In this document: piece by piece, positions 40,671 through 45,636 of the stretch
Position numbering within the stretch: the first letter of the stretch is position 1
Layout of the letters: the number at the start of each line of letters is the position of its first letter
Notes under the pieces: generated by a model
Told to the model about the DNA's origin: nothing
Databases searched by the model: none
The model's input: the letters and a program-made list of their open reading frames with translations, nothing else
Translations under genes and position numbers: made by a program
Assembly (NCBI RefSeq): GCF_030410135.1
Contig: NZ_JAUGQQ010000002.1
Span: 186,001 to 250,000, forward strand
Direction: 5' to 3'
Length of the DNA stretch: 64,000 nt
From: Aequorivita aurantiaca
GTDB taxonomy: Bacteria; Bacteroidota; Bacteroidia; Flavobacteriales; Flavobacteriaceae

Positions 40671-41384
40671 ATGGGAAGAGCTTTTGAATTCAGAAAAGCA
40701 AGAAAAATGAAGCGTTGGTCCGCAATGTCCAAAGCTTTTACGCGAATCGGGAAAGATATTGTAATGGCCGTGAAGGAAGGCGGTCCGGATCCCGACGCCA
40801 ATTCCAGATTGCGGGCGGTTATCCAAAACGCCAAGGCCGTGAATATGCCCAAGGAAAATGTGGAGCGCGCCATAAAACGGGCAAGTGATAAAAGTTTGGG
40901 CGATTTTAAGGAAGTGCTTTTTGAAGGCTACGCGCCGCACGGAATAGCAATTTTGATTGAAACCGCTACTGATAATAACACTCGGACCGTTGCCAATATT
41001 CGTAGTTATTTCAACAAATGTGATGGCAGTCTCGGCACTTCCGGTTCTGTTTCATTTATGTTTGACCACACTTGTAATTTCAGAATAAATCCCGAAGGAT
41101 TGGATATTGAGGAACTTGAACTTGAACTGATTGATCACGGCGTTGATGAAATTTTTGAGGATGAAGATGGTATAATGATCTACGCTCCTTTTGAAAGTTT
41201 CGGCGCGATACAAACTTATTTGGAAGAAAATAAAATTGAAATTTTATCTTCCGGTTTTGAGCGTATTCCTCAGGTAACGAAAAAATTATCGGAAGATCAA
41301 GTGGGAGATGTTGAAAAACTTCTCGAAAAAATTGAGGAGGATGATGACGTGCAAAATGTGTACCACACGATGGAAGAATCATAA
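40671..41384 (+). CDS. YebC/PmpR family protein (TACO1-like)
   Basis: Protein of 237 residues with the three-domain YebC layout. The N-terminal signature is MGRAFEFRKARKMKRWSAMS, and GKDIVMAVKEGGPDPDANSRL and ENVERAIKRA are also conserved. Members were long called transcriptional regulators but act at the ribosome, relieving stalling at polyproline or similar motifs. It has its own promoter (40597-40630) and a terminator (41405-41435), so it is monocistronic. Confidence 0.95.
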   Translation: MGRAFEFRKARKMKRWSAMSKAFTRIGKDIVMAVKEGGPDPDANSRLRAVIQNAKAVNMPKENVERAIKRASDKSLGDFKEVLFEGYAPHGIAILIETATDNNTRTVANIRSYFNKCDGSLGTSGSVSFMFDHTCNFRINPEGLDIEELELELIDHGVDEIFEDEDGIMIYAPFESFGAIQTYLEENKIEILSSGFERIPQVTKKLSEDQVGDVEKLLEKIEEDDDVQNVYHTMEES

Positions 41385-41451: not shown

Positions 41452-42480
41452 TTATCTGTCAACAAAAGTTAAGGACGATGCGCCAGCAAAAGGAAATGAG
41501 AATGAGGGTTGTAAATTTCCACCGGGACCAATTTCGCTGAAGAAGAGAACCTTACCTCCTTCATTTGCGCGCTCGGCAACGAAAATGGTTTGACTGATGC
41601 TTTCATAATCTACAGCAACAGGATTTCCAAGTTGCGTGAAATTACCCGAAACTCTAACTTGATTTCCGGCTACCGGCAATGTTTCACCGTTGGGCGTAGC
41701 TTCAAATTTTGATACAAATCCGCTTATAAAATGAATTGCTCCATCATTTTCATTGGATGCATCGCCAATATCAGTCAAGATCACTACTCCCCCATCTTCG
41801 GCAATACCGTGGGTGCGGGTTATGCCCTCAATAGTAATTTGTTTATCGGGCGAGGCGGTTATATCGGTAGTATAGGTCGCGACGAAATTTTTCAATACTG
41901 CAACATCAGAAGTTTTGTCAACCACTGTGTATAAATCATTACCAATAAACTCGATTCCCCAAAGGGCGTAATTCACAAACACGGTATTTCTTAGTGTATA
42001 TCCGGACGCATCCCGGGTGAATACAAACAATCTGCCATCATCAGTATTTGGATTTCCATCCGTATCTGCATTATCTGCAACAACGTAAACATCATTATTT
42101 ACTGCAATATCGCGGGGACTTTCTAAAACCGGATTACTTGAAAGCAAAAAATTTAATGGATTTCCACTTTCGGTATTTTCAACATTTGAATATGTGTTTA
42201 TTGATCGTTGGCTCCGTGAGTTTATAATAAGTTCATCTGCATCGTCGTCATAGTAAATGCCTTCATTATCATCGGAACTGGTTGCAAAGGAACGAAAGGC
42301 AATCCCGTTGGGTGTAAAATCAAATACTCCAACTGCATTATTTGTATTGCTTGTGGCATAAACATTGGCCAAGATGGGGTTTGGTGGCGGATCTCCAGCT
42401 CCATCCTCATCATCAGCATCACAAGAAATCAGGGATACTGATAATGCAAAAATTGGTAATAGATATTTAATATTTTTCAT
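41452..42480 (-). CDS. Lipoprotein with NHL/beta-propeller-like repeats, unknown function
   Basis: Protein of 342 residues with a lipoprotein signal peptide (LISC lipobox, then DADDEDGAGD). The body has repeated beta strands with Asp/Asn-rich turns (FATSSDDNEGIYYDDDADELIINS, GNDLYTVVDKTSDVAVLKNF), a propeller-like layout. A Ca-binding-like Asp-rich stretch also occurs (NADTDGNPNTDDGRLFVF). It is probably at the outer membrane. A candidate -7 box TATTTTTG lies at 42533-42540, on the minus strand. No substrate is recognised. Confidence 0.7.
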   Translation of the reverse strand: MKNIKYLLPIFALSVSLISCDADDEDGAGDPPPNPILANVYATSNTNNAVGVFDFTPNGIAFRSFATSSDDNEGIYYDDDADELIINSRSQRSINTYSNVENTESGNPLNFLLSSNPVLESPRDIAVNNDVYVVADNADTDGNPNTDDGRLFVFTRDASGYTLRNTVFVNYALWGIEFIGNDLYTVVDKTSDVAVLKNFVATYTTDITASPDKQITIEGITRTHGIAEDGGVVILTDIGDASNENDGAIHFISGFVSKFEATPNGETLPVAGNQVRVSGNFTQLGNPVAVDYESISQTIFVAERANEGGKVLFFSEIGPGGNLQPSFSFPFAGASSLTFVDR

Positions 42481-43190: not shown

Positions 43191-45020
43191 CTACATTTTT
43201 GAATACAGTTCTCTTAATTTATCTCGGTTAATTCTGTCCTTCCAATTGCTTCCTAAAGCATTTTCCCAAAGAGGCACCATCCCCAGAGCCACAGTAATCA
43301 TGGTTTCCATTTTTTCTTCCGAAAGGTTTTTGCAGACTTCTTGGGGAATTTCCACTTCGTGCTTTGCAACCATCTTTTTAAAAAGTGCTACATCCTTGTT
43401 ATAGAATTCTTCCAGAAACTGAAATACAATACAATTGCCAACCCCATGCTTCGTTCCTAAAACGTAGCCGAGGCCATAGCTCATGGCATGTGCCACCCCA
43501 ACTTGGGAATAGGCAATACTCATTCCGCCGTGCCATGAAGCCATCATTAATTTTGCGCGCATTTCATCATCTGAAAGTGTGTCGCCAAGAAAAATTTCCA
43601 TACATAAATCGTATGCCTTTTCGCCATAACTCTGGCTAAATGCATTCAGAAATGTTCCATTTAAGGATTCAACACAGTGGATAAAACAATCCATCCCGGT
43701 AAAAAACCATTGATTTTTTGAAACACCTTTTGTCAAGTCTGGATCTAAGATTACTTGATCAAATGGAGTAAAGTCACTGTTGATCCCCAATTTGCGCACC
43801 GGCCCCGTTAAAACTGTAGTGCGGGAAACTTCGGCTCCAGTTCCGGAAATTGTGGGAATACCTACGTGATAAACGGCTTTATTTTTAACAAGGTCCCAGC
43901 CTTGATACTGCTCGGCACTTCCCTGATTGACCAACATAATCGATACTGCCTTTGCCAAATCCATCACGCTGCCCCCACCGATACCGATAATTCCGGAAGG
44001 TGTGTTAGTAAATTCAGTTTTAATGTCTTTCACCAAAGTGTCAACTTGTGAAGTTTTTGGCTCTTCATCGGCAGAAATATATATCAGTTTATCATTGAAG
44101 CGAAGATTTATTCTATTTAAGAAAGCTATGTTGCCTTCAAAAACATCATCAACTAAAAAAATAAACGGAGCTTTTTCTTTGGTTTGGGATGATAATATGG
44201 TTGAAAGTTGATCAAAACAGCCCTCCCCAAAAACCACTTTGGGCACCATGGGAAAGTTTCTGAATTTATTGTTTACCGTAGGCACACTTGACTCACGAAG
44301 AAGTTCATTGGCTTTTTCGAGATCCTCTGGAGTATCTATTTCTACCCCTGTGGTATTTGAAATTGCCATTTTTATATTTTTTCCATATTCCAAGTAGCGT
44401 ATACATTCTATTTTTTCAACGGCTTCCAGCGTTCGCATTGGCAAACGATAAAAATCCATAAGGGCCTGCTTCCGGAAGGCATAGATACCTTTGTGCTTAT
44501 AGTACTGCATTGCCACATTTTTATCGCGCGGATATGGAATGGGTGAACGGGAAAAGTAGAGGGCAAAATTATCTTTATCCACAATTACCTTTACGCAATT
44601 GGGATCGCTTATTTCCTTCCAGTCGTGAATTTCGGTCATTAACGAGGCAAGATCAATTTTATGTGCATCGGGTTCTTTAAAGACAGCAAGAACCTTTTCT
44701 AAACCTTCACGATTGGTGAAAGGTTCATCGCCCTGCACATTCACCACAATATCAATGTCCATATTTTCAACTGCCTCTGCAATACGGTCGCTGCCGCAAT
44801 CGTGCTCCGTTTGGCTCATAATGGCTTTGCCTCCGCTCAATTCAATTTCTTTAAAAATTACCTCGCTATCTGTCACCACATATACTTCATCGAATAGATT
44901 CGTGGCCTTGGCAGCTTCATACGTTCTAACTATCACTGGCTTCCCGCCTAGATCCTGCATTAATTTTCCTGGAAATCGGGATGCGCCGTAACGCGCGGGA
45001 ATCATTGCTATTATTTTCAA
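43191..45020 (-). CDS. KdsB-KdnB fusion: CMP-Kdo synthetase plus Kdo 8-oxidase-like dehydrogenase
   Basis: Protein of 609 residues in two halves. Residues 1 to about 245 are KdsB (CTP:Kdo cytidylyltransferase): [44 protein letters not shown]. Residues about 255-609 are an iron-containing alcohol dehydrogenase like KdnB, which oxidises Kdo at C8 in Shewanella: [29 protein letters not shown], with metal ligands in [18 protein letters not shown] and TKHGVGN. Together they would make CMP-Kdo8N with an aminotransferase (KdnA), which is not in this window. The start is a TTG at 45020; the first ATG would cut the first beta strand. The arrangement is unusual. Confidence 0.85.
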
Positions 45021-45057: not shown

Positions 45058-45636
45058 TTAAATTCTTGGCGAACTTTTTTTCCGATGCTTTTTATAAATC
45101 CGAAAAATTATGAAGAATAGAAAAGGAACGAACAAAAATGCTATAACAGGAACCAGTATGGAGGCGACCGCCATGGCGATGGAAGTGCCTGTTTCAATGG
45201 TGGCTATAACCGGATTTGCAAGCCCGCCAGTAGTTGTACTAGAGGTTATCCGCGCGACGGCCGTGGTGCCTTTTATTGCGGCCGCAGTACCGCCTCCTGC
45301 AATAATGGCCAAGGCCCACGTTACCAATGGATTTAAATCCGCCATTGTTGCCACCATCACAAAAGTTCCTGCTAAAGTTGCAACGGGTAAAGCTATGGCA
45401 TCCAACAGATTATCTACCCAAGGAATATAATAACCGAACAACTCTATTAGAGTAGCAACGCCAATTGTGATTACCGCGGCAAGGCTGCCCATCCATTCCC
45501 AATCTTCATTAAGAGGGATAACTTCCGAAAAACCTGCCAAACTTAGAATCAGCAATGGCAGAAACACACGAAAACCAACAGCTGCAGCGAGCCCAATACC
45601 CAGAAAAATGCTCGTGGTTATCTCTAGAATTTCCAT
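45058..45636 (-). CDS. DUF4126 integral membrane protein
   Basis: Protein of 192 residues, Gly/Ala/Ile/Val-rich, with about five hydrophobic segments. The pattern ([22 protein letters not shown] near the start, [26 protein letters not shown] in the middle) is that of DUF4126, found in Bacteroidota and others with unknown function. The ATG is at 45636 and the C-terminus is basic ([11 protein letters not shown]). It lies 37 bases upstream of the KdsB-KdnB fusion on the same strand, so co-transcription is possible. Confidence 0.85.

Follow-up and report, generated by a model that had tools for sequence, protein, structure and literature searches.

A fused KdsB-KdnB protein of Aequorivita aurantiaca and its probable part in the synthesis of 8-amino-8-deoxy-Kdo

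The fused gene and the identity of its domains

The 64,000-nucleotide stretch analyzed here (positions 186,001 to 250,000 of contig NZ_JAUGQQ010000002.1, hereafter the window) comes from the 3.09-Mb genome of the flavobacterium Aequorivita aurantiaca. Its minus strand carries, at window positions 43191-45020 (contig positions 229194-231020), a kdsB-kdnB fusion gene, a single frame of 609 codons with no inner stop that ends with a stop codon at 43191-43193. Residues 1-244 of the 609-amino-acid product (44289-45020) form a KdsB domain, the synthetase that couples 3-deoxy-D-manno-oct-2-ulosonic acid (Kdo), or its 8-amino-8-deoxy form (Kdo8N), to cytidine monophosphate (CMP). Residues 252-609 (43194-44267) form a KdnB domain, an iron-type alcohol dehydrogenase of the Kdo 8-oxidase type, and a linker of residues 245-251 (44268-44288) lies between them, all on the minus strand. 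An earlier reading of the DNA letters alone (the sequence-only reading) had proposed one frame joining an N-terminal KdsB to a KdnB-like alcohol dehydrogenase, and the frame, Pfam, NCBIfam and structural matches all bore this out. Pfam placed CTP_transf_3 at residues 4-216, Fe-ADH at 261-427 and ADH_Fe_C at 441-544. The predicted structure of the whole protein had a mean predicted local distance difference test score (pLDDT) of 78 and a predicted template modelling score (pTM) of 0.58, with low confidence at residues 243-258, around the linker.

The nearest solved structures to the C-terminal half were KdnB of Shewanella oneidensis (5k8c, E values of 1.1e-128 to 4.1e-128) and a KdnB relative of S. 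denitrificans (3rf7, E 1.3e-131), to which the domain is 52-53% identical over about 355 residues. A wide gap separates 5k8c from the next alcohol dehydrogenase family (E 5.2e-22). Comparison of folds with the predicted structure gave Z scores of 50.1 and 50.2 for 5k8c and 3rf7, versus 37.8 for the next alcohol dehydrogenase. Both sequence and fold thus place the C-terminal domain with KdnB and not with unrelated alcohol dehydrogenases, as the sequence-only reading had supposed. Asp444, His448, His511 and His525 (codons within 43446-43691, minus strand), which we take to be the metal ligands from the pattern of the iron-type alcohol dehydrogenase family, were invariant in all 52 rows of an alignment of the window's protein with 51 of 80 named fused proteins (alignment A1), as were three glycines of the Gly-rich motif. 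Neither the window's KdnB nor the KdnA of its genome (see below) passed the cut-off of any NCBIfam model, so genes of this kind probably go under generic names, and the pathway can readily escape notice.

For the N-terminal half, three of the five matching NCBIfam kdsB models passed their cut-offs: TIGR00466 (196.7 bits, cut-off 155.2), NF003952 (269.9, cut-off 193) and NF009905 (257, cut-off 255). NF003950 (230.4, cut-off 234) and NF003948 (198.5, cut-off 281) did not. The first half of the predicted structure matched CMP-Kdo synthetases (1gqc, Z 29.0; 3k8d, Z 27.9), and Asp98, Asp229 and Lys19 were invariant across alignment A1. The available text on Aquifex KdsB describes Asp219 as a metal ligand and gives roles to the metal-binding aspartates and Lys19 (PMC3149649). 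By analogy, Asp98 and Asp229 of the fusion are taken as metal-binding aspartates, Asp229 (codon at 44334-44336, minus strand) as the counterpart of the second aspartate of metal site Mg-A, and Lys19 is taken to keep its role. The fused copy was the sole KdsB found when the Aequorivita genome was searched, so it should serve an essential step. Under a mechanical first-start rule the frame begins with TTG (45018-45020) in 23 of 24 Aequorivita genomes and with GTG in the other; a TTG start is odd for an enzyme that should be essential.

Distribution, gene order and origin of the fusion

The fused frame was found, at 609-610 amino acids, in 24 of 24 Aequorivita genomes searched, the window's own included; the other 23 proteins are 82-90% identical to it. 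A scan of named genomes returned a fused single frame in all of the best 80 of 182 relatives, from genera that include Aequorivita, Ulvibacter, Altibacter, Aureitalea, Aureisphaera, Cochleicola, Patiriisocius, Luteirhabdus and Aquimarina. When the domain pair was sought more widely, as the sequence-only reading had advised, the fusion turned up in at least 33 of 299 sampled Flavobacteriaceae genomes under 24 genus codes, counting one frame cut by a contig end (G239). Among sequences with identities as low as 69%, 246 of the protein's 609 positions do not vary.

A frameshift had been named as a possible artefact, and unfused kdsB-kdnB neighbours do occur in relatives. Same-length fused frames in every Aequorivita genome searched rule out a local sequencing error, and together with the 80 of 80 named loci they refute the idea that sequencing or assembly joined two genes, which we regard as next to impossible. 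Some apparent fusions were rejected. Two genomes (G290 and G183) match both halves but with stops between them, and therefore hold two genes; another (G031) first looked fused and proved to hold two genes. Frames of about 830-945 amino acids around kdnB were considered as other fusions; at ten such loci (L067-L076), KdsB and KdnB lie in frames of their own. L068 and L070, read in three frames, and L078 carry stops and a separate haloacid dehalogenase (HAD) hydrolase gene between kdsB and kdnB. Among plasmid records nothing related to the KdnB domain came up at E 1e-40, and a scan of viral contigs with Shewanella KdnB gave no matches.

We then compared gene order around the fusion with that at 18 unfused loci, which were chosen by hand and not at random. 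A common order is a helicase gene (AAA and UvrD-like domains), a DUF4126 gene, kdsB, kdnB and an acyltransferase gene, followed on the other strand by a gene like that at window positions 40671-41384; some genes are missing from some loci, and some loci end at contig ends. In the window, the DUF4126 gene lies upstream of the fusion at 45058-45636 (minus strand), as identified by Pfam and locus comparison. The acyltransferase gene (PF01553; 42638-43174, minus strand) starts 16 bases past the fusion stop, exactly as the sequence-only reading had it; in 77 of 82 fused loci and in 12 of the 18 unfused ones, a homologue comes after KdnB. Window positions 41452-42480 encode a 342-amino-acid protein with no Pfam match; 19 of the 82 fused loci have a homologue of it close to the fusion. 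Sites resembling promoters or terminators did not exceed their frequency in shuffled sequences.

A HAD hydrolase gene separates kdsB from kdnB in 12 of the 18 unfused loci (the one copy scanned was PF00702) and was found in none of the 82 fused loci. Its product may be a Kdo-8-phosphate phosphatase; examples lie in loci L067-L080 and at L199:3737-4450. The order kdnA-kdsB-kdnB occurs in 4 of the 18 unfused loci. In 2 of the 82 fused loci (L150 and L167), KdnA is encoded downstream of the fusion, past the acyltransferase gene, and all three activities are linked again.

A tree built from 54 chosen rows placed all 33 fused rows in one group with a single unfused locus (L079, genome G225), at middling support (81 in the Shimodaira-Hasegawa-like approximate likelihood ratio test). 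Two changes of state between fused and unfused suffice, which may have been either a fusion and a later split or two separate fusions. The free KdnB of L079, its DNA read by eye, begins Val-Asn-Asn-x-Tyr-Arg-Asn-Phe-Pro, the same letters as many fused linkers. Two linker forms occur, one short and one long, of which Aquimarina and some others have the long one.

KdnA and residue 227 of KdsB

The aminotransferase KdnA had been described as missing. This is true of the window and false of the genome, where a search for KdnA-like aminotransferases found the gene at contig positions 369769-370959 of the fusion's own contig (C22), 139 kb away. The genome encodes five strong DegT-family proteins (E 1e-88 or better). 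Among solved enzymes, the KdnA protein matches S. oneidensis KdnA (5k8b) over residues 1-395 at E 8.8e-150, the next reaching 5.4e-55. The suggestion that the pathway is split is thereby supported: kdnA is encoded separately and is not adjacent to kdnB or kdsB, an adjacency that the Kdo8N pathway does not require. One PF04413 Kdo transferase was found in the same genome. Its match (L261; contig C50, about 20.5-22.4 kb) adjoins a DegT-family aminotransferase gene (L001) that is not KdnA.

KdnA was detected in 23 of 24 Aequorivita genomes, the exception (G006) being 69% complete. In the sample of 299 Flavobacteriaceae genomes, KdnB was scored as present at E 1e-130 or better and KdnA at 1e-100, so that distant KdnB-like proteins, such as that of genome G191 (46%), were counted as absent. 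Both proteins were found in 190 genomes, KdnA only in 3, KdnB only in 7 and neither in 99; after one correction (G269, where KdnB lies in two pieces on two contigs) the counts were 191, 2, 7 and 99. The two are thus present together or absent together in 290 of 299 genomes, although related genomes are not independent draws and the Fisher value for this co-occurrence is not a probability. KdnA is present in 32 of 33 genomes with the fusion; the exception, G329, is 76% complete.

A phylum-wide sample of 345 genomes (KdnA at 1e-80) gave 21 with both proteins, 1 with KdnA only and 4 with a KdnB-like protein only. The KdnA-only genome (G457) has a weak KdnA and a best KdnB match of 28%. The KdnB-like-only genomes are G191, G470, G494 and G631; in all of these but G191, residues 1-334 match KdnA at 42-43%, just short of the threshold. 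The KdnB-like proteins of those three (L213 and L214 in G470 and G494, and that of G631) are 43-45% identical to the window's and, in G470 and G494, about 40% to Shewanella KdnB. Each of these three genomes has two or three KdsB matches and only the partial KdnA-like match; their KdnB-like proteins perhaps serve a capsule sugar. The locus of G191 (L199) keeps the gene order of the window with the HAD gene, and has a diverged KdnB (46%) and a Gly at KdsB position 227. KdnA was not found in the G191 genome, where the pathway looks to have been lost or changed in place. A second, distant KdnA/KdnB lineage (L209, L210, L211, L212 and L038) is 43-48% identical to the proteins of the window's genome.

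We then asked which KdsB positions follow the kdn genes. The comparison set 61 KdsB rows with a main-type KdnB in the locus or genome against 47 rows from genomes without kdnA or kdnB. KdnA was found for 36 of the positive rows; the other 25 are fused loci from named genomes outside the KdnA search. Two of the 61 are identical (L050 and L130). Absence of KdnB in the negative rows was scored from at most three candidates per genome; G164, G418, G632 and G485 were rechecked with KdnB alone, and none was found. L243 (same genome as L195) and L248 (same genome as L226) were left out, and so were the KdsB copies from three genomes, G470, G494 and G631, which have Gly, Ala or Ser at 227. Eight unclear rows were set apart: G191 (Gly), G282 (Glu), Escherichia coli (Gly) and five genomes with the distant KdnA/KdnB pair (Cys, Cys, Cys, Ser and Pro).

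Residue 227 (codon at 44340-44342, minus strand), two residues before Asp229, is Glu in 61 of 61 rows with a main-type KdnB. In the 47 rows without kdn genes it is Gly in 33, Ala in 11, and Asn, Ser and Glu in one each. This column separates the two groups best by far, with an overlap of 0.021 compared with 0.19 for the next column and a median of 0.78. Glu227 is also present in 133 of 133 fused frames, counted over named and unnamed sets that overlap. E. coli, K5 and Haemophilus KdsB have Gly, as does the otherwise close KdsB (69% identical) of G191, whose kdnB has diverged. The five genomes with the distant pair (G471, G421, G514, G571 and G029; KdsB loci L252-L256) have Glu142, which no other compared row has. 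Position 227 of Shewanella KdsB may be acidic, a point to which we give no weight. Glu227 is a lead, not proof, and only suggests a mark of KdsB specificity for Kdo8N.

A proposed route to Kdo8N, its alternatives and known systems

In the literature, of which the available texts were partial, one paper names Kdo8N as a hallmark of Shewanella (PMC6357163). In a review whose scope includes flavobacterial genera, Kdo8N is described as the Shewanella linking unit, unlike that of all other lipopolysaccharides (LPS) then known (PMC3210612); reference 17 of that review concerns Arenibacter certesii, a flavobacterium whose core structure has been published. Kdo8N has been stated as confirmed in other bacterial species, two of the three supporting references being Shewanella papers (PMC4052302). 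A survey of the alcohol dehydrogenase family links KdnB to Shewanella (PMC5125639), the name kdnB is used in a Leptospira table (PMC8510873), and a Kdo8N cytidylyltransferase is named in Pseudoalteromonas (PMC9966250). The available part of a paper on Bizionia, a marine member of the Bacteroidetes, discusses Kdo with no mention of Kdo8N (PMC9478572). No report of the fusion, or of Kdo8N in Bacteroidota, was recognised in this literature, which is weak evidence of novelty as most subscription papers lay outside the search; the term Kdo8N also occurs in PMC7281004 and PMC3946165, and both gene names in PMC5036845, three papers outside those examined.

Taken together, the domain identities and the gene content make it highly probable that the fusion is a bifunctional enzyme of the Kdo8N pathway. 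The C-terminal KdnB domain would oxidise free Kdo at C8 to the aldehyde, the separately encoded KdnA would add the amino group, and the N-terminal KdsB domain would couple Kdo8N to CMP for the Kdo transferase. Glu227, near the KdsB metal site, is the likely reader of the 8-ammonium group. We take this order of reactions from the Shewanella work of Gattis in 2013, in which KdnB and KdnA reportedly act before KdsB; reaction order, substrate preference, docking and channelling in the fusion are what we infer. Because the KdnA step falls between those of the two fused domains, simple channelling between them is unlikely to be the whole story. More likely, the fusion ties the entry and exit steps of the pathway in a fixed ratio, and it may keep KdnA docked between them.

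Other readings of the fusion are less probable. Activation could come first, with KdsB making CMP-Kdo, the tethered KdnB oxidising its C8 and KdnA aminating the nucleotide sugar. The domains would in that case stand in pathway order, and it would fit that KdsB and KdnB are adjacent or fused at the loci examined while KdnA is encoded with them at no more than 4 of the 18 unfused and 2 of the 82 fused loci. We nevertheless hold this order to be improbable, since the Shewanella work is said to put KdnB and KdnA ahead of KdsB, and Glu227 of KdsB tracks the kdn genes as if KdsB itself met the amino sugar. Quite improbable too is that the KdnB domain acts on another alcohol and shares only operon history with KdsB. 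KdnB-like proteins do occur without a clear KdnA, in G191 and, beside a partial match, in G470, G494 and G631. However, those of G191, G470 and G494 are about 40% identical to Shewanella KdnB, versus 53% for the window's domain, and the window's genome has KdnA, which is inherited together with KdnB. It is very improbable that a plain CMP-Kdo synthetase carries the KdnB half as an inactive or purely structural appendage: nothing was found in favour of this, and the presumed metal ligands and three Gly-rich-motif glycines do not vary, nor do 246 positions of the 609-residue protein.

Several points weigh against the proposal of a bifunctional Kdo8N enzyme. The two-domain structure model is only moderately confident, and fusing steps one and three without step two gives no channelling by itself. 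G282, which is 99% complete, has KdnB without KdnA and is the sole genome of at least 90% completeness among the nine discordant ones. The complete genome of G485 (L228) has Glu227 and neither kdnA nor kdnB was found in it, the one exception to the pattern, and the five genomes with the distant pair have Cys, Ser or Pro in place of Glu227. Only three or four independent contrasts bear on Glu227, the sign test is not significant (p 0.25), and the rows without kdn genes from this bacterial family come from four genus codes, mostly one. In the partial literature examined, the Kdo8N sugar itself is reported from Shewanella only.

As a whole, these genes lead us to predict that numerous marine flavobacteria make Kdo8N. 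A bolder extension, about which we are somewhat more doubtful than confident, is that roughly two thirds of Flavobacteriaceae normally have Kdo8N as their inner-core sugar, a figure based on the presence of KdnA in 193 of the 299 sampled genomes. A single acidic residue close to the metal site would then have switched KdsB specificity, the main lineage having gained Glu227 and the second, independently, Glu142, and in at least 24 genera the fused first and last enzymes would act as a gatekeeper that excludes plain Kdo. If so, a modification that alters the charge of the most conserved LPS sugar would be common in a major marine group rather than a Shewanella oddity, and kdnA, kdnB and a single KdsB residue would allow Kdo8N to be predicted from genome sequences. 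The fused protein would be one enzyme that both starts and finishes the amino version of the sugar anchoring LPS, and many marine flavobacteria may make the same sugar. The fusion is also a handy single gene for expression, with both activities to assay.

Compared with known systems, the KdsB half shares the whole domain, the fold, the catalytic Asp pair and Lys19 with the KdsB of E. coli K5 (1gqc), E. coli (3k8d) and Aquifex (2y6p). It differs in being joined to KdnB and in having Glu227 where the K5, E. coli and Haemophilus enzymes have Gly. The KdnB half has the same fold over the whole domain as S. oneidensis KdnB (5k8c) and its S. denitrificans relative (3rf7); Shewanella KdnB is a free-standing enzyme of 358 residues, whereas here it is fused behind KdsB. 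The KdnA of the genome has its counterpart in S. oneidensis KdnA (5k8b), and its gene lies far from the fusion here and beside kdsB and kdnB in some relatives. The Aequorivita genome thus holds the same set as the Shewanella Kdo8N pathway, namely KdnA, KdnB, KdsB and one Kdo transferase, in another phylum, with the first and third enzymes fused and the pathway known here from its genes.
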